DNA from: Hyphomicrobiaceae bacterium
GTDB lineage: Bacteria; Pseudomonadota; Alphaproteobacteria; Rhizobiales; Hyphomicrobiaceae
Assembly (NCBI GenBank): GCA_025351355.1
Contig: JANXWC010000080.1
Coordinates: forward strand, 1-64,000
Length of the DNA: 64,000 bases
Direction of reading: 5' to 3'
This document shows positions 408 through 19,301 of the stretch, piece by piece. The stretch's first letter is position 1, and every line of letters begins with the position of its first letter. The notes beneath the pieces were generated by a model. That model worked only from the letters and a program-made list of their open reading frames with translations, was not told where the DNA came from and did not search any database. Made by a program: the position numbers and the translations under genes.

Positions 408-1448
408 TTAGCGGCGATGCGGCAATCCCACAGGTTCGTCGCCGACCTTGATCTGCAGCTTGCCGAAGTTGTCGCCACGCAGCAAACCGATGAAAGCTTT
501 TGGTGCCTTCTCAAGACCGTCGACGATGTCCTCGCGGAACTTAAGCTTGCCGGAACGGACCATCTCGCCCATCAGCGCGCGGGCGGGCTCGTACTTCTGC
601 GCAAAGTCCGAAACGATGAAGCCGCGCATCGTCACGCGCTTGCCGACGAAAAGACCAGGCAGCCGTGGCGCCATTTCCGGTTTCTCGGCGTTGTATTGCG
701 AGATAGCACCACACAATGCAATGCGCGCCCAGGTGTTCAGCTGCAGGGTGACCGCGTCCGAAATCGGCCCGCCAACATTTTCGAAATAGACATCGATGCC
801 CTTCGGACAGGCTGCGCGCAGAACCGCATTCAAATCGCCAGCGGCCTTGTAGTCGACGCACGCATCAAAGCCCAATTCCTTAACGACAAACTCGCACTTC
901 TTGGCGCCGCCCGCGATACCGACGACGCGGCATCCGGCCATCTTTCCGAGTTGCCCAACCGCCTGGCCAACGGCACCGGATGCCGCTGAAACAACTACGG
1001 TCTCGCCGGCTTTGGGCTGTCCCACATCGAACAGACCAAAATAAGCAGTCATGCCGGGCATGCCGAGAATGCCATTCGCCGTAGAAATGGGTGCGATCGC
1101 CGGATCGATGCGACGCATCGCGGGACTGGCGCTGATCGCATATTCCTGCCAGCCCATGCGGTCTTCAACGATGTCGCCAACTTTAAACACTGGATGACGG
1201 GAGGCCACGACCTCGCCAACAGAACCGCCACCGAACACCTCGCCGATGCCGATCGGAGCCGCATACGACGCGCCATCGCGCATGCGGCCCCGCATGTACG
1301 GATCGGCCGACAGATAAAGAAGACGCACCAGCACTTCGCCGTGCTGCGGCTCCTGTAGCGGCACTTCCTCTAACCTGAAATTGTTCTCGGTGGGTTCGCC
1401 TGTCGGCCGGCTGGCCAGCACGATGCGGCGCTGTGTCTTGGGAAGCAT
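408..1448 (-). CDS. NADP-dependent oxidoreductase, MDR superfamily (LTB4DH/CurA-like)
   Basis: Zinc-independent medium-chain dehydrogenase/reductase of 346 residues, full length for the leukotriene B4 dehydrogenase/CurA group that reduces activated C=C bonds of enones with NADPH. The N-terminal half has the family feature ADPYMRGRM, followed by the GMTAYFGL segment and the nucleotide-binding AASGAVGQAVGQ near residues 155-166. There are no zinc-ligand cysteines, as expected. It is cytoplasmic, with no signal peptide. It is transcribed away from the sulfatase operon, leaving a divergent promoter region of about 220 bases. The exact substrate cannot be told from sequence. Confidence 0.9.
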   Translation of the reverse strand: MLPKTQRRIVLASRPTGEPTENNFRLEEVPLQEPQHGEVLVRLLYLSADPYMRGRMRDGASYAAPIGIGEVFGGGSVGEVVASRHPVFKVGDIVEDRMGWQEYAISASPAMRRIDPAIAPISTANGILGMPGMTAYFGLFDVGQPKAGETVVVSAASGAVGQAVGQLGKMAGCRVVGIAGGAKKCEFVVKELGFDACVDYKAAGDLNAVLRAACPKGIDVYFENVGGPISDAVTLQLNTWARIALCGAISQYNAEKPEMAPRLPGLFVGKRVTMRGFIVSDFAQKYEPARALMGEMVRSGKLKFREDIVDGLEKAPKAFIGLLRGDNFGKLQIKVGDEPVGLPHRR

Positions 1449-1672
1449 TTGGTTTGACCTTATTCAGGGTTTGGGCGCGTTGCATCGACAGTCAAGCGGC
1501 GGTCGCGCAACTGCGCCAACGCAGGAAGGTGTCGTTTCGTGCGCCAGAGCCTCGCTCGCCGGGCCGGGCTTTGTCAAACTGTCGGGCGTCATTCCACGTC
1601 AGGAGTTGCGCTTTCGAGCAAGCCAATGTTAGCGTTCGATTAATACAAAAGAGCAATTCGAGGGAGCGCGCG

Positions 1673-3937
1673 ATGAACGGCGGCAACAGCTTCAAGGGCC
1701 GGATCGGGCGGACGGTTTACGACTCACGACCGCATTGGCCGGAACATCCGCGTCCGCGTGATGGCGCGCCGAATATTCTCGTCATCCTGTTCGATGACCT
1801 GGGGTTTGCGCATCTCGGTTGCTACGGCTCGTCCATTGCGACGCCGAACATCGATCGGCTCGCGGCGAACGGCCTTCGCTACACCAATTTTCATACAACG
1901 GCGCTGTGCTCGCCGACGCGTGCGGCGCTGTTGACCGGACGCAATCATCACTCCGTGGGGATGCGCGGCCTGTCGAACTGGAATACCGGCTACCCCAACT
2001 GCACCGGCACGATCACCAGGAGCGCTGCCACAATCGCTGAGATGTTGCGCCCCGTCGGCTACTCCACGTTCGCCGTCGGCAAATGGCATTTGGCACCAAT
2101 CGAGAGCCTGACACCGGCCGGGCCGTTCGATCAGTGGCCGCTGGCGCGCGGATTTGATCGTTACTATGGCTTCATGGGAGGCGAAACCGATCAGTGGTAT
2201 CCGGAATTGTACTGCGACAACCATCCAATACCTCAGCCGCGCACGCCCGACCAGGGGTACCACCTCTCGGAGGATCTGGTCGATCAAGCGCAAGCCATGA
2301 TCCGCAGCCAGAAGTCGGCGATCCCTGAAAAACCATTCTTCACTTACCTGTGTTTCGGTGCGACGCACGCGCCGCATCAAGCACCGAAATCATACTTGGA
2401 AAAATACCGTGGCAAGTTCGATGCCGGTTGGGACGTGGTGCGGCAGCAGTGGTACGAGCGACAGAAGATGCTCGGCATTATTCCCGACAATACAGAACTC
2501 GTGCCGCGCAACCCCGGCGTCAAGGCCTGGGAAAATTTGTCTGCAGACCAGAAGCTGCTCGCCTGCCGGTTACAGGAAGCCTACGCGTGTTTTCTTGAAC
2601 ATACCGACGCGCAAATCGGCCGCTTACTGGCTTTCCTCGAAGAGATTGGCGAAGCGGACAACACGTTGGTGCTGCTGATGAGCGACAACGGGGCCAGCCA
2701 GGAGGGTGGGCCGCAGGGGATGGTCGACTATTCCCGCTATTTTAACGGTTATACCGAGCCTATAGAAGAGAGCATGGCGCGGCTCGATGAAATTGGCACG
2801 CCAGTGGCGCATAATAATTATCCCTGGGGTTGGGCGCAGGTCGGCAACACGCCGGGCAAACGCTACAAACAAAACACCCACGGCGGCGGTATCCGCGATC
2901 CGCTGATTGCCTGTTGGCCGAAGGGCATTGCCGACAAAGGCGGCATACGCACGCACTTTCATCATGTCTCAGATATCGCGCCGACGATCCTCGACATCAT
3001 CGGCTTGACGCCACCGGAAACGATCAATGGCCACGCTCAAATGCCGATCCAAGGCACCAGCCTCGCCTACTCTTTTTCGGCCACCGCAAACGCGGAAAAA
3101 TCTCGCAAGCAAGCGCAATACTTCGAGATGTTCGGCCATCGCGGTATCTGGGCCGACGGTTGGAAAGCAGTGGCCTATCACGAACCAGAAACCCCGTTCG
3201 AAAACGACAAATGGGAACTCTATCACCTCGAAAACGACTTTTCTGAAAGCAAAGACTTGGCCGCAACAAAGCCCGAGAAGTTGCGCGAGATGGTCGAGCT
3301 GTGGTGGGCGGAGGCGGGCCAAAACGGCGTGCTACCGCTCGACGATCGCCGCGTTGAAATCTGGGCGCCGACGCCGACGAAATTCAATCCGCGCAATCGC
3401 GAGCGGTATGTCTATCGACCACCGGTGCCGCATATTCCGGCCGAGGGCGCGCCCGCGCTCGGCAACCGTAGTTTCACTATCACTGCGGATATCGTCCGCC
3501 CGACAACGCAATCTGAGGGCTGCCTTTTCACCTTCGGCGATGCCAAAAGCGGCGTGGCGCTCTACATTCTCAAAGACCGGTTGGTATTCGATTACAACCT
3601 CTATGCCACGCACTATCAGGCCGTCTCGAAAATATCCATGCCGAAGGGTAAGTCGACGGTGACAGCCAAACTCTCCAAGCTTGAGAAGGGTGGTCGAGTA
3701 ACGCTGGCGATAAATGGCCAGGAATGCGGCAGCGTCGACATTCCCAAGCTGATCCGCCGACTGTGGGGAGCGGGCATGAATATTGGTCAGGATGAAGGAC
3801 TCGCCGTGAGCAAGGACTACACGGTGCCGTTCAAATTCGAAGGGCAATTGCTGCAACTCACACTCGACGTGCCGCCGGCCAAACCGACCAAAGCCGATCA
3901 ACGCGCCGAAACGCGAGCCGATCTGGCGCAGCAGTAA
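1673..3937 (+). CDS. Arylsulfatase, formylglycine-dependent (first of two tandem copies)
   Basis: Type I sulfatase of 754 residues that hydrolyses sulfate esters. The signature C-S-P-T-R lies at residues 79-83, with Cys79 expected to become formylglycine and the metal-site DD at about 41-42. The catalytic alkaline-phosphatase-like fold runs to about 560, followed by a roughly 190-residue beta-rich domain. I see no signal peptide, so it is probably cytoplasmic like mycobacterial AtsD-type enzymes. The frame is open 80 codons further upstream, but I chose the ATG at 1673 because it follows AGGGAG and gives the same N-terminus (FKGRIGRTVY) as the next gene. It is followed 34 bases later by a paralogue. 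Confidence 0.93.
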   Translation: MNGGNSFKGRIGRTVYDSRPHWPEHPRPRDGAPNILVILFDDLGFAHLGCYGSSIATPNIDRLAANGLRYTNFHTTALCSPTRAALLTGRNHHSVGMRGLSNWNTGYPNCTGTITRSAATIAEMLRPVGYSTFAVGKWHLAPIESLTPAGPFDQWPLARGFDRYYGFMGGETDQWYPELYCDNHPIPQPRTPDQGYHLSEDLVDQAQAMIRSQKSAIPEKPFFTYLCFGATHAPHQAPKSYLEKYRGKFDAGWDVVRQQWYERQKMLGIIPDNTELVPRNPGVKAWENLSADQKLLACRLQEAYACFLEHTDAQIGRLLAFLEEIGEADNTLVLLMSDNGASQEGGPQGMVDYSRYFNGYTEPIEESMARLDEIGTPVAHNNYPWGWAQVGNTPGKRYKQNTHGGGIRDPLIACWPKGIADKGGIRTHFHHVSDIAPTILDIIGLTPPETINGHAQMPIQGTSLAYSFSATANAEKSRKQAQYFEMFGHRGIWADGWKAVAYHEPETPFENDKWELYHLENDFSESKDLAATKPEKLREMVELWWAEAGQNGVLPLDDRRVEIWAPTPTKFNPRNRERYVYRPPVPHIPAEGAPALGNRSFTITADIVRPTTQSEGCLFTFGDAKSGVALYILKDRLVFDYNLYATHYQAVSKISMPKGKSTVTAKLSKLEKGGRVTLAINGQECGSVDIPKLIRRLWGAGMNIGQDEGLAVSKDYTVPFKFEGQLLQLTLDVPPAKPTKADQRAETRADLAQQ

Positions 3938-3971
3938 CCGGTTCCAATATTTTGTCCCGCGAGCGGAGCGA

Positions 3972-6242
3972 ATGACAATGCCGTCGAACTTCAAGGGCCG
4001 CATCGGCCGGACAGTCTATGAGTCAAAGCCACACTGGCCGGAATTACCACGTCCGCGCGATGGCGCGCCCAACATCATCGTGATGCTATTCGACGATGTG
4101 GGCTTTGCGCATTTCGGCTGCTACGGTTCGTCGATCGCCACGCCGCACATCGATCGCCTTGCGGCGGGTGGATTGCGTTACACCAATTTCCACACGACGG
4201 CGCTGTGCTCGCCGACGCGGGCGGCTCTGCTGACCGGGCGCAATCATCACTCGGTGGGCATGCGCGGGTTGGCCAACTGGAACACGGGTTTTCCCAACTG
4301 CACGGGCGGCGTGGCCAAGAGCGCCGGCACACTGGCGGAAATGTTGGGGCCGCAGGGATACGCGACGTTCGCGGTCGGCAAATGGCATCTGACGCCGATG
4401 GAAGAAACGTCTGCGGCAGGGCCGTTCGACCAGTGGCCGTTGGCACGCGGGTTTGATCGCTATTACGGCTTCCTGCAAGGCGAAACCGATCAGTTCTCGC
4501 CGGAACTCTATTGCGACAACCGGCCGATCGATCCGCCGCGCACGCAACAAGAGGGTTATCATCTCACCGAGGATCTGGTCGATCAGGCGCAGGCGATGAT
4601 CCGCGGCCAGAAATCGGCGGTGCCGGAAAAACCGTTCTTCGCCTATCTCTGCTTCGGCGCGTGCCACGCTCCGCATCAGGCACCCCAAGCCTATCTCGAC
4701 AAGTATCGCGGAAAATTCGACGCGGGTTGGGATAACGTGCGCCAGCAGTGGTACGAGAAGCAGAAGAAGCTGGGGATCATCCCAAAAGACACCCAACTGG
4801 CGCCGCGCAATCCCGGTGTGGAACCGTGGGAGACGTTGTCGACGGACCAGCAACGCCTCGCCTGCCGGCTGCAAGAGGCGTTCGCCGCCTTCCTTGATCA
4901 TACCGACGCGCAGATCGGACGGCTGATCAAGTTCCTCGAAGATAGCGGCGAACTCGACAACACGCTCATTCTGCTGATGAGCGACAACGGCGCCAGCCAG
5001 GAAGGCGGACCGATTGGCGTCATCGATACGTTCAAGTGGTTCAATGGCATCCCCGAGGAGATGAGCGACATCACCGGCCGCATCGACGAAATCGGCGGCC
5101 ACAAGTCCAATTCGAATTATCCCTGGGGCTGGGCGCAGGTCGGCAACACGCCAGGCAAGCGCTACAAGCAAAATACGCATGGCGGCGGCATTCGCGATCC
5201 GCTGATTGTGCACTGGCCGAAGGGCATCAACGACAAGGGCGCCATACGTGATCAATTCCATCACGTCACCGACATCGCGCCGACAGTGCTGGAGATTGTT
5301 GGTGTCGACGTTCCCGCCAGCATCAAGGGCGTAGCGCAAATGCCGGTGCACGGCACATCGTTGGCCTATACGTTCGCGACGACGGCAAGGGTCGAGAAAA
5401 CCCGCAAGCAGACGCAATACTTTGAAATGTACGGGCATCGCGGCATCTGGTCGAACGGCTGGAAAGCTGTCGCCTTTCATCCCCCCGGCAAGCCCTTCGA
5501 GAAAGATCAGTGGGAACTTTATCATCTCGATCAGGACTTCTCCGAATGCAACGATCTGGCGTCCGCGCTGCCGGACAAACTCAGGGAAATGATCGAGCTG
5601 TGGTGGTCCGAAGCGGGGCAACACGGCGTGCTGCCGCTCGACGACCGTCGCGTCGAATTGTGGCGCCCAAGCCCGGTGAGTTTCACGCCCCGCAACCGCA
5701 CGCGCTACGTTCTCTATCCGCCGGTCGCGCACATGACCGGCGAAGTCAGCCCGTCACTCGGCGGGCGCAGCTTTACCGCGACAGCCGAACTCGAGCGTCC
5801 GCACGCGAATTCGCAAGGCGCAATATTTGCGCTCGGCTCGGCACACAACGGCATCGCCTTCTATGTGCTGGGTGACCGGCTGGTGTTTGACTACAATTTG
5901 TTTACCAAGCACTACAAAGCCATCTCCGGCGTGCCGCTTCCAAAAGGCAGATCGACGGTCTCGGTGGCCTTAGTGAAAACCGGCGACACCGGGCATGCGA
6001 CCATCGCGATTGACGGCACGCCCTGCGGCCGCGTCGAAATTCCGAAGATCCTGCGCATGATTTCGTCGACCGGTATGGACGCGGGGCGCGATCCGGGCTC
6101 GCCGGTCGGCGACGACTATGCGGCGCCGTTCGCGTTCGAGGGCAAAATAGTACGCTTGATGTTCGACATGCCCGAGCGCTCGAAACGCGATGAAAAGGCG
6201 GCTCGGTCAGCTGAAGCCAAAGCAGCGATGTCGCGGCAATAG
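3972..6242 (+). CDS. Arylsulfatase, formylglycine-dependent (second tandem copy)
   Basis: Close paralogue of the preceding gene, colinear over its full 756 residues, including the active-site C-S-P-T-R at 79-83, the DD metal ligands and the C-terminal beta-rich domain. This indicates a tandem duplication of a complete sulfatase. Differences cluster around residues 345-380, near the substrate-facing part of the fold, and in the far C-terminus, which suggests divergence in substrate range (inference). No signal peptide is seen. It is followed by the gene for the enzyme expected to convert Cys79 to formylglycine, so the modifying enzyme and both clients sit in one operon. Confidence 0.93.
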   Translation: MTMPSNFKGRIGRTVYESKPHWPELPRPRDGAPNIIVMLFDDVGFAHFGCYGSSIATPHIDRLAAGGLRYTNFHTTALCSPTRAALLTGRNHHSVGMRGLANWNTGFPNCTGGVAKSAGTLAEMLGPQGYATFAVGKWHLTPMEETSAAGPFDQWPLARGFDRYYGFLQGETDQFSPELYCDNRPIDPPRTQQEGYHLTEDLVDQAQAMIRGQKSAVPEKPFFAYLCFGACHAPHQAPQAYLDKYRGKFDAGWDNVRQQWYEKQKKLGIIPKDTQLAPRNPGVEPWETLSTDQQRLACRLQEAFAAFLDHTDAQIGRLIKFLEDSGELDNTLILLMSDNGASQEGGPIGVIDTFKWFNGIPEEMSDITGRIDEIGGHKSNSNYPWGWAQVGNTPGKRYKQNTHGGGIRDPLIVHWPKGINDKGAIRDQFHHVTDIAPTVLEIVGVDVPASIKGVAQMPVHGTSLAYTFATTARVEKTRKQTQYFEMYGHRGIWSNGWKAVAFHPPGKPFEKDQWELYHLDQDFSECNDLASALPDKLREMIELWWSEAGQHGVLPLDDRRVELWRPSPVSFTPRNRTRYVLYPPVAHMTGEVSPSLGGRSFTATAELERPHANSQGAIFALGSAHNGIAFYVLGDRLVFDYNLFTKHYKAISGVPLPKGRSTVSVALVKTGDTGHATIAIDGTPCGRVEIPKILRMISSTGMDAGRDPGSPVGDDYAAPFAFEGKIVRLMFDMPERSKRDEKAARSAEAKAAMSRQ

Positions 6243-6311
6243 TGCCGCCGCAATAATGTTGGCGTAGCTGGGTACAGCAATGCCAGATGTCCACACGATG
6301 CCGGTATTCAC

Positions 6312-7529
6312 ATGAGCGACGACCTCGACCGCTGTTGTTGTCCCCAGGCACGCGCGGCGGCTGTTATCCCTCGTTCTCCGGTTGCCGCAATAGCAGCCGA
6401 TAGAACCGGCGAAGACGATTGCGACATGGCGATAATTCCGGAGGGCGTATTTCGCTACGGCTGCGATCGGCGCGAGGGACCTCCCGGCGATGGCGAGGGA
6501 CCGTCTCAACTCGTCTCGGTACCAGCGTTCCAGATCGATCGTTGCTCCGTTACGAATGCACGTTTCCAGCGCTTTATTGATGCCACCGGCTACATCACCG
6601 ACGCCGAGCGACTGGGTTGGTCGTTCGTATTCGCAGGGCTGTTGCCTGATAATTTCGAGGACACAGCTGGCGTGGCGGGCGCACCCTGGTGGCGACAAGT
6701 GTTCGGCGCCGATTGGCGGCATCCCGAGGGTCCGCATTCGTCCTTGAAAGATCGGGATTGGCTGCCGGTAGTGCAGGTCTCGCACCACGATGCGCTGGCC
6801 TTCTGTGGCTGGGCCGGAAAACGGTTACCTTACGAAGCCGAATGGGAAAAAGCCGCGCGCGGTGGCGTCGAAGGCGCGCGCTTCCCATGGGGCGAGGACG
6901 AAATTCCGGCAGACGGCCCGCACTGCAATGTCTGGCAAGGCAGCTTCCCCGACCGCAACGACTGCATCGACGGCTTCTATGGCTTGGCCCCGGCCGATGC
7001 GTTTGCACCCAACGGCTACGGCCTGCACAACATGGCTGGCAATGCCTGGGAATGGTGCGCGGACTGGTTCATGCCGCGACGTTTCCCTCCGTTAGCGGAT
7101 CAAGCCGTGACCAGACCTATGCCGCGCGGACCAATCGACGGCGAGCTGCGATCGATGCGCGGTGGCAGTTACCTCTGCCATCCCTCCTATTGCTGGCGCT
7201 ATCGCAATGCAGCACGATCAGCCTCGGCGCCGGACAGCGCCACGGGCCATATTGGTTTCCGCTGTGTCCGTGACGTGGCACCTGAAAAGTCTTACGCCGT
7301 AAACGCTGCTTGCACCACGGCGACGGGTCAAGTTAGTCTGCCGCAAAGGTTCAAACAAGGAACCGGTAAAAAAATTGCCGCTGGCACGCACTGCGTCGTC
7401 CAAAGCAGCAATCGGGAGGTTAATCGATGGTTTTTCAGCATGCGTTCCGTGCGGGCGCTGGCTTGGCGGCACTATTCATTCCTGCGATGGCGCTTGCCCA
7501 GACGCCCCGAGCCAACGGCGAAACACTGA
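6312..7529 (+). CDS. Formylglycine-generating enzyme family protein (SUMF1/FGE-like)
   Basis: Oxidises the active-site cysteine of sulfatases to formylglycine. The FGE-sulfatase fold spans roughly residues 38-322 and carries the conserved features MAGNAWEWCADW and GGSYLCHPSYCWRYR, with the redox/copper cysteine pair at Cys289 and Cys294 and the terminal GFRC. These match true oxidases rather than only the broader fold family. Context is decisive, since two sulfatases precede it. Oddities: about 80 extra residues follow the domain, the last 34 or so overlap the next gene in another frame, and the first 37 residues are low in similarity. Either the tail is real or a single-base difference near 7300 removed the original stop. 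Confidence 0.88.
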   Translation: MSDDLDRCCCPQARAAAVIPRSPVAAIAADRTGEDDCDMAIIPEGVFRYGCDRREGPPGDGEGPSQLVSVPAFQIDRCSVTNARFQRFIDATGYITDAERLGWSFVFAGLLPDNFEDTAGVAGAPWWRQVFGADWRHPEGPHSSLKDRDWLPVVQVSHHDALAFCGWAGKRLPYEAEWEKAARGGVEGARFPWGEDEIPADGPHCNVWQGSFPDRNDCIDGFYGLAPADAFAPNGYGLHNMAGNAWEWCADWFMPRRFPPLADQAVTRPMPRGPIDGELRSMRGGSYLCHPSYCWRYRNAARSASAPDSATGHIGFRCVRDVAPEKSYAVNAACTTATGQVSLPQRFKQGTGKKIAAGTHCVVQSSNREVNRWFFSMRSVRALAWRHYSFLRWRLPRRPEPTAKH

Positions 7530-11368: not shown

Positions 11369-11629
11369 TGTCGGCTTCCTCCCTCGGTTGCGGCGATGTC
11401 GAGATTACAGCGCTTCAAGACAAAATGGCAGCCAATTTCGCGAGGTATCCGCGAGCGGCGCAGGCCTGAACCGCGTGGGATTTTTCTGAAATTACGCGGC
11501 ATTCCAAGTTGGACGAGAGGTCGTCGCGCGACAGCTTATGCCTTATGCGGCTGACCTCGCAACGCTTGGTAACTGAAAATTCACCAATGGCGATGTAACT
11601 CCATTGCTCAACTCTTGGTTGATGTTTTC

Positions 11630-14600
11630 ATGGCTACTATCTTATTTTGTGCATCGGCGAGGTTTAAGCAACGGCAGTATTTGACCGTTTCGTTGGCGTT
11701 GGCTGCAAGCAGTTTGGCCGCCCAACCGGCTTTTGCCATCCCATCACCGGAACTTATTGTCGGTTCGGTCACAAGCCTCTCGCAAATCGCGACGCTGGCC
11801 ATGGCGATGTTTGGCGGTGGTGCCGCAATCGTTCATTCGCGCTCGCCCGACAGCCGGCCGAGAAGCCGCTTGCTTGCCCTGGCCTTAGGTCTGGTTTGCG
11901 CCGTTTCCCTCGGCCTCAATGCCGCTCAGTGGCATGAAAACAGTGCCGCGCGACAAGCACGCTTGGAAGCGACATTACTGCGGCCAACTCCAATTTCCAG
12001 CCTAGCCAGCCTCGATCCTCAATTAAACGACCTGACCTATGGGCAGCAATTGAAGCATCCCCTGGGTATCAGCACATCGGCGGCCGCGGATCTGCTGCAG
12101 AAGTCGGCAGCTGGCGACCTTACCGAAACAATCTTCATCGATGTGCGTGAGACCGCCGAAACCGAGATGGGTAATCTGCCCGGCGCTTTGGCTGTACGCT
12201 ATCCCGATTTTTCTGCAGCTAAGCTGAATCTAACCGACAAAAAAACTGTGCTGTTCTGCCATAACGGCAATCGCAGTCATGAGATCTGCGAAGCACTCAC
12301 CGCACTCGGCATACCCTGCCAATTTATTGTCGGTGGACTCGAGAAATGGGTGGTTGAGATGCGACCGATAACAGGCTTATCGGCGCGGTCACCGGCGGAC
12401 TTGAGGGCCATTCCGCCATATCGGAATCAACGCACTCTGCTCGACACAGAGCAGGTGCAACAACTGGTGCGCGACGAGAAAGCTCTGTTCATCGACGTCC
12501 GCACCGACAACGAATTCGCCGCGGGGCATCTCCCAAACGCGATCAACCTGTCAATCCGTAGTCTGCCGACCAAAAAACTCACCGCCAGCATCGCCGCTTT
12601 GCCACGGCGGCCTGTCATCATGCCCTGCTATGATAGCCGCGGTTGCTTCTTTGCAGAGGTACTTGGGCTTGAACTGACGCGTGCCGGATTTGACATTCGT
12701 GGTCGTTACACGGTGCCATCAGAATATTTCGTGCCGGCCAACCCACCGCCGCACGTGGCAGCGTGGGTCGCCGAAAGCCAGCGTAGCGTGTGGACTAGAG
12801 CCGAAGACTTTACAGCCGATATCGTTAGGCGGTTGGCGGCCGCGAGCGGTTTGCCGTTGGCAATTCTGCTGTTAGCAACGCTGTCGCGCTTGATCGTGCT
12901 GCCGCTGTCGTTGAAGGCCGAACGCGATCAACTGACCATCAAATCGTTGAAACCGCTTGTCACTGCGCTGCTTGATCGCACCAAAGATGACCGATCGCAG
13001 CGGGCGCATGCATTGCAGACCCTTTATCGCCGACACGGCTTAACTCCGGTGCGAAACCTTCTAGCGTTATTCTTTCTGCCGATCATGACACTGGCAACAG
13101 CCGGTATCTATCGCGAAGCTGTGCGCCTGCCTCGGAACTGGTTGTGGATACCCAATCTAGCCCAACCCGACACACACTTCGCTCTGCCGATCTCATTTGC
13201 CATTCTGATCGCCACCTATTTGCATATTACGATCGCTGATAGCTCGCGTCAGCGTATGCTCGTTTGGCTAGCCGGCGCCCCGGCCTTGACCGCAATCGCG
13301 TACTACTTGGGCGGCGCAATTGATCTATATCTCGTCGTGAGCGCGGCGCTGTTGCTGTCCCAACGCTTCATTGTCAAGCAATCGGCACAGCCAACAATAA
13401 AGCTGCGGTCTGGGATAAGGGTCCAATGGCAGCGGCTTTGGCTACCATCAGGTGTCATCACGCTCGACGACGCCGAGCGCCTTGTCGGTCGCGGCAACAA
13501 AGCATTGCGATTGGCTCAGTTGAAAGCCCGCGGCATTTGTGTTCCCACGGGCTTGTTGCTCACCCACACCTACCTCGACGAACTTGACGCCCTACCAGCG
13601 CACAAGCGCAAGCGAAGGCTCGACCGTCTGTGGCGGAAACTGGGCGCATCCAAACTCGTCGTGCGTAGTTGTGGCGCAGCTGAAGACGGCGCCAAGCAGA
13701 GCTTCGCAGGTGTTTTCCACTCCGAACTCGGCGTCGAGCGCGCGGCACTTGCCACCGCAATCGCGTCCGTACGCGCCTCATTCTCGTCTGAGCGCGCAGC
13801 AAGCTACGGCTTCGCCCCGGAGAGCGGAAATGTGCTGCTTCAAACGATGATGCACGCTGAATATTCGGGAGTGCTATTCACACGCGATCCCGTGGCCGCC
13901 GGCGCCATGTTGGTGGAACTCGTCGAAGGGACAGCGGACGGCTTAGTATCCGGTACGGTGACACCTAAGCCTTTCCGCTTCGGCATCAAATCGCTGCGAC
14001 CGCTCGGCGATGCATCGCCGCCAATTTCACTTCACCCTCTATTGGACATCGGCACGCAGGCAGCAAGCTTGTTTGGACGGCCGCAGGATATCGAGTGGAC
14101 CTACCGGCAGGGTGCCTTTCAGATCGTACAAAGCCGCGATGTCACGCATGAATTGAACAGCCCGGTGCAGCAAGACTGGACCCGTGTACTCGCCACAGTG
14201 ACTGCTGCCGATCCGGAGACAATCATTTTTGCGCAGACAGAAATGTCCGAGATGCTGCCGCGCCCGACGCCGCTGTCCTATGAGTTGATGGAAAAACTGT
14301 GGGCTCGCGACGGCAGCGTCGGGAGCGCTTGCCGTCGACTGGGATTGAACTATCAAGTTCACGAGGAGCAGCAACCGTATTTGGCGCTGATCACCGGTCG
14401 CCTCTATGTCGACAAACGCGAGGAAAAAGCCCGGGCGCCCCACGTCGGTAAATTGGCGCTGCGAAACCTGGAAAAATCCGCGGCAGCGATCGAAAAACAA
14501 TTCCGAAAAGAATTTCTGCCTGAATTCGAAGCGCGGATGGCGCTCTTGGCTGCCGTTGATTTCGATTGCATGAGTAAGGACGACCTGCTGACTACGCTTG

Positions 14601-15667
14601 ATCGTTTAGTCTCTTCTTTCGTGTGCGAAACGCATGTCGAAGTGGATATCATCAATATAGCCGCGCAATTGTTCGTCCAACGCACGCAGGCGGAACTATT
14701 GGCAGCGAACCTCGAGGTGGCTGGCTTCCTTTCGCATGTGTGTCCATCTGCGTCCGCGATCGCCATCGCGGCCACAAGCAAACTCGATCGCCAGGCCCGG
14801 GATCGAGCCGTGCGCGCCATCGTTGGTCATCGCGCGCCCGTCGATTACGAACTCGCCCAACCACGCTTCGCCGAGGATGATTCGTTGCTGGCGACTTTTT
14901 ATGGTTTTGGCGCAAACGCCGCCACATCTGACGCGGAGCCCGCAGTGGAGGAAGCGTCTTTGACATCGGCAAACACAGCCCTGCGTGAGACGATTGTGCG
15001 GGCGCGACGTTTCCAAACCCTAAAGGAGGATGCCAAGCACACCTCACTCAAGGAATTGGCAGCTATTCGACGCGCGGTGCTGGCTGTCGACCACAAATTC
15101 GCGCTCGACGGACTTGCATTTTTTGCTACCTTCGCCGAGTTGCAAACCCTCAAGAATGATGGTTCCCATCGCGTGCGCGCACTCGCCTCGGATCGCCGCG
15201 CTTTGTTTGAAGCTTTCGCGGAAGCCGCGCCACCGCCACCGGCACTGACATTGCGTTCCATTGAACACGCGACCGCAACCGCAATCGTCCGAGATCCAAA
15301 TGACGGACAGCCACTTGTCGGCATCCGTGTAGCTGGTTCCGCAGAGGTTGAAGGACGATGTTGCAGCGTATCGGCATCCGACGCCGAAATCGGTGCACCC
15401 ATCGCAGAGTTTTCACCAGGCGATATTATTGTGGCGCGGATGTTTCACCCGGCGTGGTTGCCCTATCTCGCTCAATGTGGCGGCATCGTCTGCGAAGTCG
15501 GCGGTTGGCTCAGCCATATGGCGCTACTGGCACGCGAACGGAACATTACGATGATTGTCGGCATTGGCGGACTTTCGACAATTGCCCATCATACGGTCGT
15601 CCGATTGCATCACAACGGCACGGTAGAGTGCATCGAGCAGCAATCGACGATGGTGGCGGCGCAGTGA
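11630..15667 (+). CDS. Multidomain membrane protein: double rhodanese, YidC/Oxa1-like and PPDK/PEP-synthase-like phosphotransferase
   Basis: Single open frame of 1345 residues. Hydrophobic N-terminus with segments near 15-37, 50-68 and 80-97. Rhodanese 1 at about 145-250 has active-site Cys210 in CHNGNRS; rhodanese 2 at about 270-375 has Cys333 in CYDSRGC. A YidC/Oxa1-like region at about 390-585 shows the groove arginine (Arg420, in LSRLIVLPLS), the KDDRSQ and LYRRHGLTP segments and LWIPNLAQPD, with about five membrane helices. A PPDK N-terminal ATP-binding domain at about 610-840 has VRSCGAAED, FAGVFHSELG and DIEW. A middle segment has LPRPTPLS, and the C-terminal swivelling domain carries the phospho-histidine His1296 in GGWLSHMALLARE. 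All catalytic residues look intact. The role is unknown. There is no clear Shine-Dalgarno; TTG at 11615 is an alternative start. Confidence 0.88.
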   Translation: MATILFCASARFKQRQYLTVSLALAASSLAAQPAFAIPSPELIVGSVTSLSQIATLAMAMFGGGAAIVHSRSPDSRPRSRLLALALGLVCAVSLGLNAAQWHENSAARQARLEATLLRPTPISSLASLDPQLNDLTYGQQLKHPLGISTSAAADLLQKSAAGDLTETIFIDVRETAETEMGNLPGALAVRYPDFSAAKLNLTDKKTVLFCHNGNRSHEICEALTALGIPCQFIVGGLEKWVVEMRPITGLSARSPADLRAIPPYRNQRTLLDTEQVQQLVRDEKALFIDVRTDNEFAAGHLPNAINLSIRSLPTKKLTASIAALPRRPVIMPCYDSRGCFFAEVLGLELTRAGFDIRGRYTVPSEYFVPANPPPHVAAWVAESQRSVWTRAEDFTADIVRRLAAASGLPLAILLLATLSRLIVLPLSLKAERDQLTIKSLKPLVTALLDRTKDDRSQRAHALQTLYRRHGLTPVRNLLALFFLPIMTLATAGIYREAVRLPRNWLWIPNLAQPDTHFALPISFAILIATYLHITIADSSRQRMLVWLAGAPALTAIAYYLGGAIDLYLVVSAALLLSQRFIVKQSAQPTIKLRSGIRVQWQRLWLPSGVITLDDAERLVGRGNKALRLAQLKARGICVPTGLLLTHTYLDELDALPAHKRKRRLDRLWRKLGASKLVVRSCGAAEDGAKQSFAGVFHSELGVERAALATAIASVRASFSSERAASYGFAPESGNVLLQTMMHAEYSGVLFTRDPVAAGAMLVELVEGTADGLVSGTVTPKPFRFGIKSLRPLGDASPPISLHPLLDIGTQAASLFGRPQDIEWTYRQGAFQIVQSRDVTHELNSPVQQDWTRVLATVTAADPETIIFAQTEMSEMLPRPTPLSYELMEKLWARDGSVGSACRRLGLNYQVHEEQQPYLALITGRLYVDKREEKARAPHVGKLALRNLEKSAAAIEKQFRKEFLPEFEARMALLAAVDFDCMSKDDLLTTLDRLVSSFVCETHVEVDIINIAAQLFVQRTQAELLAANLEVAGFLSHVCPSASAIAIAATSKLDRQARDRAVRAIVGHRAPVDYELAQPRFAEDDSLLATFYGFGANAATSDAEPAVEEASLTSANTALRETIVRARRFQTLKEDAKHTSLKELAAIRRAVLAVDHKFALDGLAFFATFAELQTLKNDGSHRVRALASDRRALFEAFAEAAPPPPALTLRSIEHATATAIVRDPNDGQPLVGIRVAGSAEVEGRCCSVSASDAEIGAPIAEFSPGDIIVARMFHPAWLPYLAQCGGIVCEVGGWLSHMALLARERNITMIVGIGGLSTIAHHTVVRLHHNGTVECIEQQSTMVAAQ

Positions 15668-15872: not shown

Positions 15873-15977
15873 TTCATTTGCCCTATGCTTAAGATACATT
15901 TTTTAACCGCCGCCATTATTCTAGATATTATGATCATCAACCAGCTGCCCGCAGCGCCTGCACATCGGAAAACAACA

Positions 15978-16781
15978 ATGACCAAAAGTTTCGCACGAGA
16001 GAAAACATCAACAAGACCGTTGCGCGCCAAAGAGATCGCGCTGATAGTTAGCGCGGTGATTTGCACGCCGGCCTGTGCAGAAAGTCTTATCGTGCAGGGA
16101 TCCACGACATTTAATTCTCGTTTGATGGAACCTTATCAACGAGCCATCGAAGGAATGTCGGGCGTTAGTCTGCAGGTAATTCCAAACAAAACTCTCAATG
16201 GATTAAATGCGCTGCTCGAAGGCCGCGCCGATCTGGCTATGATTTCGTCGGCCCTGGATACGGAATTGTTGGTCCTGCGAGCATTGAACAAGCCGGGAGT
16301 GGACAAACTCGTTAGCCATCAGATAACCAACACACGGATCGCGTTTGTCGTTCACCCGAGCAATCCAGTACGGACTGCCGGCATCGAAACCATTCGCAAA
16401 ATCCTGCTTGGGCGAATTTCCAATTGGCGAGAATTGGGCGGTCCCGATTTGCCGATCCGAGTAACATTTGTCAGCAAAGCGGGGGGCGTGACGCAGACCG
16501 TGCAGGCGCAAGTACTGGACGGCCGGCCGATTGAAGCTTTGAACCCCATTCCAATGAGTTCAGCTGAACAGGTCATCAAGGTGGTCGAACAAGAACCTGG
16601 CGCACTGGGCTTAGCCCAAATCCGCCTGGTAACGGATCGCAAACTTCCCGAACTTGCGACGGATGTGACGGTATCTCAGGTGCTGGCCCTCGTCACGCTA
16701 GGTGAACCGAGCAAAGCTGCGAGTGAAGTGATCGACGCGACCCCCAAAATTGCCAGCAAACGCCTGGCTGCAGCGCAATAG
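15978..16781 (+). CDS. PstS-like periplasmic binding protein
   Basis: Exported protein of 267 residues with the PBP-like fold of phosphate-binding PstS proteins. A signal sequence near residues 15-34 ends in CTPACAES, and the mature part opens with the anion-binding GSTTF segment. Later features (HPSNPV, ILLGRISNWRELGG) follow the PstS/SphX pattern. No pstCAB or phoU genes are nearby, so it is an orphan receptor or a sensor component. The frame is open 31 codons further upstream; I prefer the ATG at 15978 because it places a normal signal peptide. It sits 39 bases before a c-di-GMP enzyme and follows the fusion gene, suggesting one functional locus (inference). Confidence 0.82.
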   Translation: MTKSFAREKTSTRPLRAKEIALIVSAVICTPACAESLIVQGSTTFNSRLMEPYQRAIEGMSGVSLQVIPNKTLNGLNALLEGRADLAMISSALDTELLVLRALNKPGVDKLVSHQITNTRIAFVVHPSNPVRTAGIETIRKILLGRISNWRELGGPDLPIRVTFVSKAGGVTQTVQAQVLDGRPIEALNPIPMSSAEQVIKVVEQEPGALGLAQIRLVTDRKLPELATDVTVSQVLALVTLGEPSKAASEVIDATPKIASKRLAAAQ

Positions 16782-16820
16782 CCCGATTGGCGACCGCCGC
16801 GCGAAGATGCGCCCTTGAAA

Positions 16821-19301
16821 ATGAGCTTCATCATGTTGTCAGTCGTTCGGACTTGGCGTCCAGGGATCGCCGCAAATTCTTGGATCGTCGCGGGCCTAAC
16901 GCTGTTGGCGTTGACGTCGCTTGCGTTGCCGGCCTTGCGGCTCGCCGAGGTTACCACAACAGCATCCTCCTACGTCAGTACTGTTGTCTCTGGCGGCTTA
17001 ACCACCGCCACCGAAGTTCAAGTCAAACTTGAACGCCACCGGCGGCTTGTCGAAAGTGCACCGGCAGAAGTTGATCGGACGGAACTCGAACGGGACTTGG
17101 CCACGGCGATTGCAATCGAAGAAGATTTGGCAGGGTTGATCGCGCTTGCCCATCCGACCTTGTCGACCGCTATTAGAGGTCGCCTGCCCGAGCTAAAGGC
17201 CCGACGGGAGCAGGTCTTTCTTTTTGCAATGAACTTCGCTCAGGACAAGGCCACCGAGACGGCAGCGCAATACGCCACTATCGCCACGGCATTTTCGGCG
17301 GAGGTCAATGAGTATCTTACGGAGCAGCGGCGGCTGATCGCGCTTTGGTCACGGGAATTGGCGGACAGTGCTAATACATTCAAACTCTGGTTATGGGGAA
17401 GCGTTGTTGCAACATTAATCATTCTCGGCCCGATCGGCATGACAATCATCTATCGGATGATATCCCGCCTGGATCGGCTGAAGACAGTGATCTTCCGCCT
17501 CGCAAATCACGACGCCGCGGTGGAAGTGCCATCGCTTAAAGACGATGACGAAGTAGGCGATATCGCCCGGGCTGTGCTCGTTTTTCGCTCTAACGCGGTT
17601 GCATTGTTGGACAGCGAACAAAAACTCAAGGCAGTCAACCAACAGTTCGACATTGCGCTCAGCAACATGTCGCATGGCATGTGTATGTTCGATCGGCATC
17701 AGAAAGTCGTCGTTTTGAACAATCGCTATCTGGAACTGTATGGTTTGCAGCCATTGGACATCACGGTCGGAACTACGCTCAGGGATATCATTACGCTGCG
17801 GATCGGCCGTGGACTGTTTGTTGGTGAAAGCCCCGAAGCCTATTTGGAAGAGCGACTGCGACCGGTGACGGAAGCGACCGTCATCGTGCATTCGATGAGC
17901 GACGGACGCTTCATTTCCATATCGCGTCGCCCCATGCGCGACGGCGGCTGGGTGACGGTACATGAAGACGTGACCGAACAGCAGAATGCCGCACGCAATA
18001 TCGCTCATATGGCAAATCACGACGCATTGACCGACCTTGGCAATCGCGTTCTGCTAAAGGAGAGGTTGACCCTGGAACTGGCGCGCGTACGCCGCGGCGG
18101 CGCGTTCGCGCTTCTTTATCTTGATCTCGACCGCTTCAAGGCGGTGAACGATGGTCTAGGCCATCCGGTGGGAGACGTCTTGCTATGTGCTGTCGCCGAC
18201 CGTTTGCGCCAACTCGTGCGCGAGGTCGATACGGTAGCACGCCTCGGCGGCGATGAGTTCGCCATACTCCAAGTCGACGCCACGACACCGGAGGCAGCTA
18301 TTAGCCTTGCATCCAGGCTTACGAAGGCCATCTCCGCACCTTACGTCATCAACGGCCATACGATTGAAATTGGGACCAGCATCGGCATCGCATTGACGCC
18401 GCGCGATACAATGGATCCCGACGAGCTGATCAAGTTCGCCGATATGGCGCTTTATCGTGCCAAAGAAACAGAGCGGGGGTCCATATGCGTCTACGAAAAC
18501 GAAATTCAAGCGCACCTTTTAGCGCGACGCGCTTTGGAACGCGATCTTCGAATGGCAATAGCCCGTGATCAATTCGAACTTCACTATCAGCCAGTCGTGG
18601 ATCTTTCGACTGGCGGAATTCACGGCGCAGAAGCGTTGCTGCGTTGGCGGCATCCCCAACACGGCCAAGTGTCACCGACGGAGTTCATTCCGCTCGCCGA
18701 GGAAACGGGATTGATCGGCGAAATCGGAACCTGGGTCATGCACACGGCGTGCAAGGCTGCCGTGACGTGGCCGACGAGCACCAAGGTCGCGGTCAATCTT
18801 TCGCCCGCGCAATTCAGGCTGGGAAATATTGAACTTATGGTCGCCGACGCCCTCGGCAAGACCGGCATGGATCCGCAACGGTTGACAATCGAGATCACGG
18901 AATCGACCCTGCTTCAGGAAGATCAGGCCGTCTTGGCGACGCTGAACAATCTCCGTAAACTTGGTGTCAGCGTCGTCCTCGATGACTTTGGTACGGGTTA
19001 TTCTTCGATGAGCTATCTCAGGCGTTTTCCGTTCAACGGCTTGAAGATCGACAAGAGCTTCATCCGCGACGCATCCACGCAAGCCAATTGCGTCGCCATC
19101 GTGCAGTCGATTGTCAGTCTGGCGACAAGCCTCAATATGCATACCGTCGCGGAAGGCGTGGAAACGGAGGCCGATCTCGCAATGGTGCGCGAGGCCGGCT
19201 GCACACACGTACAGGGATATCTGTTGTGCCGTCCGGTGCCACTGGAGCACTTGGCCGCGAAATTTGCGACAATCGGCACCCGTTCACGCCTGGTTGCCTA
19301 A
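16821..19301 (+). CDS. Membrane GGDEF-EAL protein (c-di-GMP cyclase/phosphodiesterase) with HAMP and PAS
   Basis: Bifunctional c-di-GMP enzyme of 826 residues. Membrane helices at about 20-40 and 188-210 flank a periplasmic sensor region. HAMP spans about 212-260 and a PAS-like domain about 268-390. The GGDEF domain has an intact GGDEF at 476-480 and an RxxD inhibitory site (REVD) five residues before it. The EAL domain (about 565-815) has [18 protein letters not shown] and LKIDKSFI, so both activities look possible. TTG two codons upstream is an alternative start. It sits directly after the PstS-like receptor, which could be the ligand partner for its periplasmic domain (inference). Confidence 0.93.

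Follow-up and report, generated by a model that had tools for sequence, protein, structure and literature searches.

The window analysed here is a stretch of 64,000 nucleotides from a Hyphomicrobiaceae bacterium (positions 1 to 64,000, forward strand, of contig JANXWC010000080.1, GenBank assembly GCA_025351355.1). Its positions 11615 to 15667 encode a protein of 1350 amino acids in which two rhodaneses, a YidC/Oxa1 core and a complete dikinase are arranged, in this order, in a single chain. As judged from sequence, this fusion mostly belongs to a three-gene system consisting of the enzyme, a phosphate/phosphonate-type binding protein and a receptor with a swappable output. We read it, with slightly less than even confidence, as a transmembrane ATP-dependent phosphotransferase that would work as the enzyme alongside a signalling module that senses an oxyanion. 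The features of the system in the window all lie on the + strand; fusion loci and genomes used for comparison are referred to by L and G numbers, respectively.

A single reading frame joins four domains

The frame opens at TTG 11615 and runs uninterrupted across 1350 codons to the stop at 15667. An alternative start, ATG 11630 (residue 6), is the one used in an initial annotation of this DNA. No clear Shine-Dalgarno sequence was visible by eye at either codon and, therefore, the exact N-terminus is unsettled. Residues are numbered here from TTG 11615; those of the initial annotation are 5 lower, i.e. its Cys210, Cys333, Arg420 and His1296 are C215, C338, R425 and H1301. The annotation had placed rhodaneses, a YidC-like domain and a phosphotransferase on one unbroken frame, and the four Pfam families that go with this proposal, Rhodanese, 60KD_IMP, PPDK_N and PEP-utilizers, were all found in the window protein above their curated cut-offs. 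The same architecture was also found elsewhere, in full-length homologs across several phyla. Among 33 of 64 fusion loci, picked at less than 85% alike and scanned at E<=0.001, Rhodanese, 60KD_IMP and PPDK_N were each detected in 33 and PEP-utilizers in 32. Residue conservation was counted over 52 aligned homologs, i.e. 51 open reading frames of more than 1200 amino acids and the joined halves of a Ghiorsea copy (L091, see below).

That the fusion is an artefact, either a chimeric assembly or a chance joining of domains, finds its one argument in the draft state of the genome, which consists of 266 contigs; nothing further points that way. Full-length homologs in many independent genomes and on complete plasmids exclude a chimera in practice, as they do frameshifts splitting the gene, a risk that the initial annotation had raised. 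We give this explanation next to no chance: the observed four-domain fusion is real.

The membrane half: hairpin, rhodaneses and YidC/Oxa1 core

The protein begins with a signal-like segment followed by a two-helix membrane hairpin (residues 20-105; 11672..11929) with a basic inter-helix loop and a near-invariant AIPSPE motif, in which P43 and P45 are kept in 52/52 homologs. Two rhodanese domains come next. Rhodanese 1 (about residues 150-252; 12062..12370) carries the loop C215-HNGNRS and is supported by Pfam, alignment and fold, while rhodanese 2 (about residues 278-375; 12446..12739) carries the loop C338-YDSRG-C344 and has its best Pfam stretch at 278-344; the family as a whole scores 71.7 bits in two stretches, against a cut-off of 22.2. 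In the predicted structure, rhodanese 1 matches solved rhodaneses with Z of about 15-16 over model residues 114-220, and a match to the tandem rhodanese 6mxv covers both domains with a root-mean-square deviation (rmsd) of 12.4. C215 is kept in 51/52 homologs, C338 in 49/52 and C344 in 45/52 (Ser in 6). L076 and L078 have lost C338; L091 has lost it as well and is the one copy without C215. Two rhodaneses with intact cysteines were thus correctly recognised in the initial annotation. By Pfam, fold and catalytic cysteines, the window protein is assigned two rhodanese-family domains, the sulfurtransferase activity of which is predicted.

The YidC/Oxa1 core (residues 415-588; 12857..13378) has the groove Arg425, YidC-like hydrophobic helices and a basic C1 loop (433-480). 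The family 60KD_IMP scores 56.7 bits over residues 415-588 (cut-off 35) and is found in 33/33 scanned homologs, L084 being under the curated cut-off at 30.1 bits. A model of the membrane half (residues 36-612; 36 sequences, pLDDT 84.8, pTM 0.56) matches E. coli YidC 6al2 with Z 17.6 over 196 aligned residues (rmsd 3.3) and Bacillus YidC 3wo7 with Z 17.4. Arg425 and D519 are present in 52/52 homologs, W511 in 50 and P525 in 51. Thus, the YidC/Oxa1-like domain with its groove arginine, for which the initial annotation had asked for a structural match to YidC, is borne out, and by Pfam, fold and groove arginine the core is placed in the YidC/Oxa1 family, with a putative insertion activity. The NCBIfam model TIGR03592 (yidC_oxa1_cterm) gives 51.5 bits, under its cut-off of 84.3, and therefore does not file the protein as an ordinary YidC insertase.

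A second YidC-like protein of ordinary size (666 aa open frame, 25% identity over 118 residues) is encoded on another contig of the same genome, so that the fusion copy could be specialised. It might then be a dedicated insertase or modifying chaperone: its YidC core would insert one membrane protein in particular, possibly the partner receptor, and the dikinase would phosphorylate that protein. The invariant or nearly invariant YidC-type positions listed above agree with such a role, but the acceptor domain of the solved dikinase relative described below binds a small molecule, and the partner receptors come from unrelated families, which a single dedicated insertase does not predict. We consider this explanation quite unlikely.

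Topology was derived from loop charges, given here as mean Lys+Arg/Asp+Glu over the 52 homologs. The loop that follows the first membrane helix has 5.3/0.3, the C1 loop of the YidC core 11.2/6.3, loop 505-524 0.3/2.2, loop 541-550 2.7/0.1 and the tail preceding the dikinase 5.4/1.4. According to the positive-inside rule, this bias predicts the rhodaneses to be periplasmic, in the place of the periplasmic P1 domain that YidC carries, and the dikinase to be cytosolic. Together with the catalytic residues in place, it upholds the earlier proposal of a membrane-anchored phosphotransferase. Two naturally divided copies fit a soluble cytosolic half, since both break at the membrane/cytosol border. 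Firstly, in the Ghiorsea metagenome-assembled genome (MAG; L091, 5079-9049), the fusion is made of two open reading frames with a 4-base overlap, the break falling between the YidC part and the dikinase; its membrane half gives a weak 60KD_IMP match (24.1 bits, cut-off 35) and no rhodanese match. Secondly, in a Rhodobacteraceae MAG (L056, 4499-8518), an in-frame stop parts halves matching window residues 21-581 and 591-1338, each with its own start.

Such a topology would also suit a transmembrane sulfur/redox sensor, in which persulfides of the periplasmic rhodaneses control the cytosolic dikinase and the phospho-histidine feeds a phosphorelay. The two periplasmic rhodaneses with near-invariant cysteines, and the second cysteine C344 in 45/52 homologs, speak for it, but the dikinase is kept where C338 (L076, L078) or both cysteines (L091) are lost, and this explanation too appears improbable.

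The dikinase half is of rifampin phosphotransferase type

The cytosolic half comprises an ATP-grasp (PPDK_N) domain (about residues 610-850; 13442..14164), defined by Pfam (672-790, 79.2 bits against 27), alignment and fold, an acceptor domain (about residues 860-1215; 14192..15259) like that of rifampin phosphotransferase (RPH), and a swivel phospho-histidine domain (about residues 1234-1345; 15314..15649), where PEP-utilizers scores 55.5 bits against 23.1 over residues 1267-1329. K629, R684, E690, E827, Q839 and R841 are invariant in 52/52 homologs, K1137, E1138 and K1141 are found in 51/52, and residue 1301 (codon 15515-15517) is His in all 49 rows with a letter there, in agreement with the phospho-histidine that the initial annotation had located in the swivelling domain. 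K629 is presumably the equivalent of RPH K22, by the conserved GNK motif only. A model of residues 604-1345 (35 sequences, pLDDT 88.6, pTM 0.85) has Listeria RPH as its best match (Foldseek E 2.6e-28) and aligns with RPH 5hv1 over 651 residues with Z 22.9 and an rmsd of 11.3, which we take to reflect different domain positions. Alignments with structures of phosphoenolpyruvate (PEP) synthase and PPDK are much shorter and lie in the ATP-grasp and swivel parts. In the available part of the RPH study (PMC4844700), K22, R117, T136, R666, E667, K670 and H825 are implicated; R117, T136, R666, E667, K670 and H825 align with R684, S703, K1137, E1138, K1141 and H1301, so that K1137-E1138-x-x-K1141 stands at the place of R666-E667-x-x-K670.

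The initial annotation had described a full phosphotransferase of PPDK/PEP-synthase type. The dikinase is indeed complete, with its catalytic residues present, while the type has to be revised: the domain order (ATP-grasp, acceptor, C-terminal His swivel) and the fold match RPH, and the half is therefore classed as an RPH-type dikinase with predicted catalysis. None of the four families matched by the window protein at E<=1 in Pfam is a PEP/pyruvate-binding TIM barrel. Identity with PEP synthase or PPDK was rejected, as the His domain sits at the C-terminus, where the protein ends, and PEP_synth TIGR01418 gives 75.8 against 739.75 bits; identity with RPH itself was rejected as well, NF041857 giving 119.1 bits against an equivalog cut-off of 999.

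Some copies carry a C-terminal addition. PilZ, a domain that binds cyclic di-GMP (c-di-GMP), ends 3 of the 33 scanned fusions (L086:6623-11257, L073:1337-6175 and L090:3778-8145), L073 also having GAF. This fits an effector that would be under second-messenger control in some lineages. By eye, the tails of L072 and L078 resemble divergent PilZ.

The fusion mostly has a binding protein and a receptor as partners

In the window, the fusion gene is followed by genes for a periplasmic binding protein (PBP_like_2, 298 aa; 15885..16781), the nearest solved relatives of which are phosphate-binding proteins of PstS type, and for a membrane receptor with PAS-GGDEF-EAL output (828 aa; 16815..19301), in which the GGDEF and EAL motifs are readable in the translation and HAMP is weak, below cut-off. 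Neighbours at other loci were recognised within 4.5 kb of the fusion, using profiles from the window's and Roseobacter partners. The resulting table of 64 loci leaves out L039 and L032 (same DNA as L043 and L044) and the remnants L035 and L036; L141-L144 were fetched afterwards and are outside its counts. A binding protein was found at 54 loci and a receptor at 52. Where at least 4.5 kb flanks the fusion on both sides, the two occur together at 39/40 loci, or 39/41 with the later-fetched L144 (G877), which is flanked to the same extent and has no binding protein. The receptor gene adjoins the binding-protein gene in 52/54 loci, one receptor (L027) being cut by the record start and left out of the Pfam scan.

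The 51 scanned receptors comprise 41 histidine kinases (37 with a receiver), 7 GGDEF-EAL proteins and 3 methyl-accepting chemotaxis proteins (MCP), and all 54 binding proteins belong to either Phosphonate-bd (45) or PBP_like_2 (9). On a quick tree of 57 fusions, at least 3 changes of output type and 2 of binding-protein family are needed. MCP receptors occur with Phosphonate-bd (L058, L071) and with the PBP_like_2 type (L127), which indicates that the parts of the module are exchanged separately. The sensor regions of GGDEF-EAL receptors are not clearly homologous to those of kinases from Rhodobacterales and Gammaproteobacteria, and they match those of MCP receptors in the HAMP stretch only, so the swap involves the whole receptor. 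Since outputs are exchanged while the enzyme is kept, it is probably the signal itself to which the enzyme is linked.

Other genes accompany the module at some loci. A wider neighbourhood comparison found a zinc-type ABC cluster, tviB and an RpiR regulator at 16 to 24 loci each. The zinc-type ABC transporter cluster and a Fur-family regulator adjoin the module in L028:5171-8441, L029:5374-8449 and L040:8150-11367, with similar genes near 20 of the loci compared, and OmpA-family, caspase-family and DUF4384 genes were seen near Roseobacter plasmid partition genes (L027:14099-17423, L029:24712-27888). In G022, the AIPSPE hairpin is joined directly to an EAL domain (L036:6883-8046), with an OmpA/BON gene adjoining, and in G005 an EAL fragment comes after the N-terminal hairpin (L035:2379-3328). 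In these two genomes the module seems to have collapsed by internal deletions, leaving AIPSPE hairpin and EAL.

The binding proteins point to a phosphate-like oxyanion

As mentioned above, the window's partner is of PstS type. The Phosphonate-bd partner of P. inhibens has the phosphite-binding protein PtxB as its nearest solved relative (2.4e-23), and AioX and ArrX are further relatives of these binding proteins. Compared with PtxB, in so far as its binding site is given in the portion of PMC5700983 at hand, the Ser, Thr, His and Tyr ligands of the oxyanion are kept in the Phosphonate-bd partners, whereas all 44 rows with a letter have Lys for the Tyr that caps phosphite, and all 43 such rows have Ile as the last residue of the STS motif. 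These pocket residues (S, T, I, H, KPW) are nearly invariant across phyla. Because of the change of the capping Tyr to Lys, phosphite was rejected and the ligand is predicted to be something else. The comparison, which did not include ordinary Phosphonate-bd proteins as a control, suggests a phosphate-like oxyanion with an extra negative charge.

Two alternative readings concern what the enzyme could do with such a compound. It might be a signal synthase: the dikinase would make a phosphorylated small molecule, perhaps thiolated by the rhodaneses, that exits via the YidC-like domain and to which the binding protein responds in an autocrine or quorum-like manner. A fusion that stays constant while binding-protein family (2 changes) and output (3 changes) vary on the tree, and a pocket that is near-invariant across phyla, are as expected if a single ligand is conserved. 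However, environmental sensing accounts for this pattern too, and YidC proteins are not known to us as exporters of small molecules; such a synthase is on the unlikely side. Alternatively, the fusion could capture a periplasmic anion, or a sulfur or phosphorus metabolite, and phosphorylate it on entry by group translocation, the binding protein and receptor reporting its availability. PtxB and PstS are nutrient-binding, and a phospho-histidine and a membrane domain share one chain with rhodaneses on the opposite side, all of which would suit uptake, but AioX and ArrX are not clearly uptake proteins and we know of no small-molecule transport cycle for a YidC core. We regard uptake as unlikely.

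The fusion is patchily distributed and in part plasmid-borne

Within the window's own family, 9/103 genomes match the fusion at E<=1e-15, six of them (its own included) over most of the protein. At E<=1e-60, matches are found in 5/397 genomes of the order and 2/385 of the class, both counts including the window's genome, and in 5/198 genomes of the family of G806, a genome assigned to Rhodobacterales by its gene neighbours. A genome-contig scan with a single-protein query returned no relatives, while an alignment query recovered them. The named-genome scan (best 80 of 560) adds Granulosicoccus, Ectothiorhodospiraceae, Planctomycetota, Nitrospiria, a 'Deltaproteobacteria' MAG and Parachitinimonas. 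Full-length homologs are thus known from Alpha- and Gammaproteobacteria, Planctomycetota, Nitrospiria and others, many of them MAGs, and from Roseobacter plasmids. Single placements outside the Alphaproteobacteria could be binning errors, most being MAGs; the Planctomycetota and Granulosicoccus copies form their own clades or group with near kin on the tree. A spread as patchy as this is what an accessory gene that can be transferred would show.

In PLSDB, the fusion is matched by 85 plasmids, 81 of them over 80% or more of its length, and 82 belong to Phaeobacter, Leisingera, Tritonibacter, Parasedimentitalea or Ruegeria; of the remaining three, both of the two that are among the matches listed match in the dikinase only. 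Among the matches listed, the P. inhibens fusion is carried by plasmids of 219-262 kb. The 262 kb plasmid bears the tropodithietic acid genes and is curable, according to the accessible text of PMC5421792, and we infer that the fusion gene is probably dispensable in culture. In the records examined, databases give the fusion the generic names 'PEP/pyruvate-binding' or 'rhodanese-like domain-containing protein'. One copy titled Nocardioides marinus (L089, JAHVJD010000008.1) falls among those of Leisingera and Phaeobacter and probably comes from a mislabelled or mixed assembly.

A proposed transmembrane phosphotransferase paired with a sensor

Our working model of a transmembrane phosphotransferase allied to an oxyanion sensor can be laid out as follows. 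The chain would run from the membrane hairpin through the two periplasmic rhodaneses and the YidC-type core to the cytosolic RPH-type dikinase. By homology with RPH, ATP would be split to AMP and phosphate, the beta-phosphate passing via phospho-His1301, and the swivel domain would deliver phosphate to an acceptor held at K1137/E1138/K1141. Gene context suggests that a phosphate-like oxyanion in the periplasm is signalled by the binding protein to the receptor, the output of which would be c-di-GMP in the window and a phosphorelay or chemotaxis at other loci, and that the fusion makes, takes up or modifies the same compound as is sensed. More speculatively, the acceptor may be passed to or from the dikinase via the YidC-like groove, which would amount to vectorial phosphorylation, and sulfane sulfur may be added or removed by the rhodaneses in the periplasm, where they might alternatively serve as a thiol switch. 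A specific version of the model, in which the dikinase, through the repurposed YidC core, phosphorylates (and possibly, with the rhodaneses, thiolates) a small anion crossing the membrane, the same molecule being read by the binding protein with interchangeable outputs, is conceivable, if doubtful. If it were true, the fusion would represent a new class of transmembrane enzyme, a YidC-family domain would be used for small-molecule chemistry, and phospho-histidine group translocation would occur outside the phosphotransferase system (PTS).

Co-occurrence across genomes agrees with the pairing of enzyme and sensor, though its p-values overstate the evidence, because the genomes are related and 3/5 carriers are physically linked: in the family of G806 (198 genomes), the binding protein is present in 5/5 fusion carriers and 1/193 others at E<=1e-50, a cut set after seeing the matches (Fisher p 2.5e-9), and in 5/5 and 4/193 at E<=1e-15 (p 5.2e-8). 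The single genome among the others at E<=1e-50, G946, has binding protein and kinase on a contig that lacks the fusion; G977 carries its fusion on one contig and the pair of binding protein and kinase on another, and in G877 the binding protein is on a contig other than the fusion's.

Besides these caveats on the statistics, several observations weigh against the model. Many of the loci counted among the 64 are closely related to each other (Leisingera, Phaeobacter), so that they are not independent. No binding protein or receptor adjoins the fusion of L084, which has full flanks, or is found beside L087 (6.9 + 3.1 kb), L073 (1.3 + 3.1 kb) and L079 (6.5 kb upstream), and none is present in the 14 kb stretch of the G877 fusion (L144). 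Besides L084, nine more loci of the table are without a binding protein, all with a shorter flank on at least one side; L079, L087 and L073 may truly lack one. In the Ghiorsea copy, no rhodanese domain was detected and both cysteines are gone by alignment; this loss, with that of C338 in L076 and L078, means that sulfur chemistry is not essential everywhere. The Pfam scan found no PilZ in the window's copy. Lastly, the YidC-like core could serve as an anchor only.

Elsewhere in the window, at 1433-7529, two long open reading frames with the sulfatase motif CxPxR (CSPTR), followed by a third one, were read by eye; we take the first two to be of sulfatase type and the third to be like formylglycine-generating enzyme.

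Comparison with known systems

We found no description of the fused enzyme or of its three-gene system in the open-licence PMC literature that was searched. The individual domains and the pairing of binding protein and receptor are of known kinds, while the fused enzyme and the three-gene system, not found described, appear to be new. The four-domain layout is constant across several phyla and marine Roseobacter plasmids, and solving the fusion would assign the YidC/Oxa1 fold a new role and bring to light a dikinase reaction and an extracellular signal or nutrient that are likewise new.

The rhodaneses resemble GlpE-like and tandem rhodaneses (1gmx, 6mxv) in fold and, for rhodanese 1, in a loop of C-x-x-G-x-R/S type; they differ in being joined to a membrane core and in the CYDxRxC form of the second loop. 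With bacterial YidC/Oxa1 insertases, the core shares its fold, groove arginine, basic C1 loop and charge topology, but two rhodaneses fill the place of the P1 domain, a dikinase of about 740 residues follows, and the window genome keeps a separate YidC-like protein besides the fusion. With Listeria RPH (5hv1/5fbs; PMC4844700, from the section available), the cytosolic half has in common the ATP-grasp, the acceptor domain and the C-terminal His swivel. RPH is a soluble stand-alone enzyme, whereas here the dikinase is fused behind a membrane domain and rhodaneses. The equivalents of R117, E297, E667, K670 and H825 are retained by alignment and that of K22 by motif, while R666 is replaced by Lys and T136 by Ser in the window protein.

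Finally, NspS-MbaA is the closest precedent known to us for a binding protein that feeds a GGDEF-EAL receptor; to our knowledge, it has no enzyme partner of this kind beside it. As far as the consulted part of PMC8967002 describes it, it is alike in having a periplasmic binding-protein gene that adjoins the gene for a GGDEF-EAL receptor. NspS binds polyamines (same source), whereas the binding proteins described here are, as judged from sequence, of PstS or PtxB type, and they are combined with receptors of three output types and with an enzyme partner.

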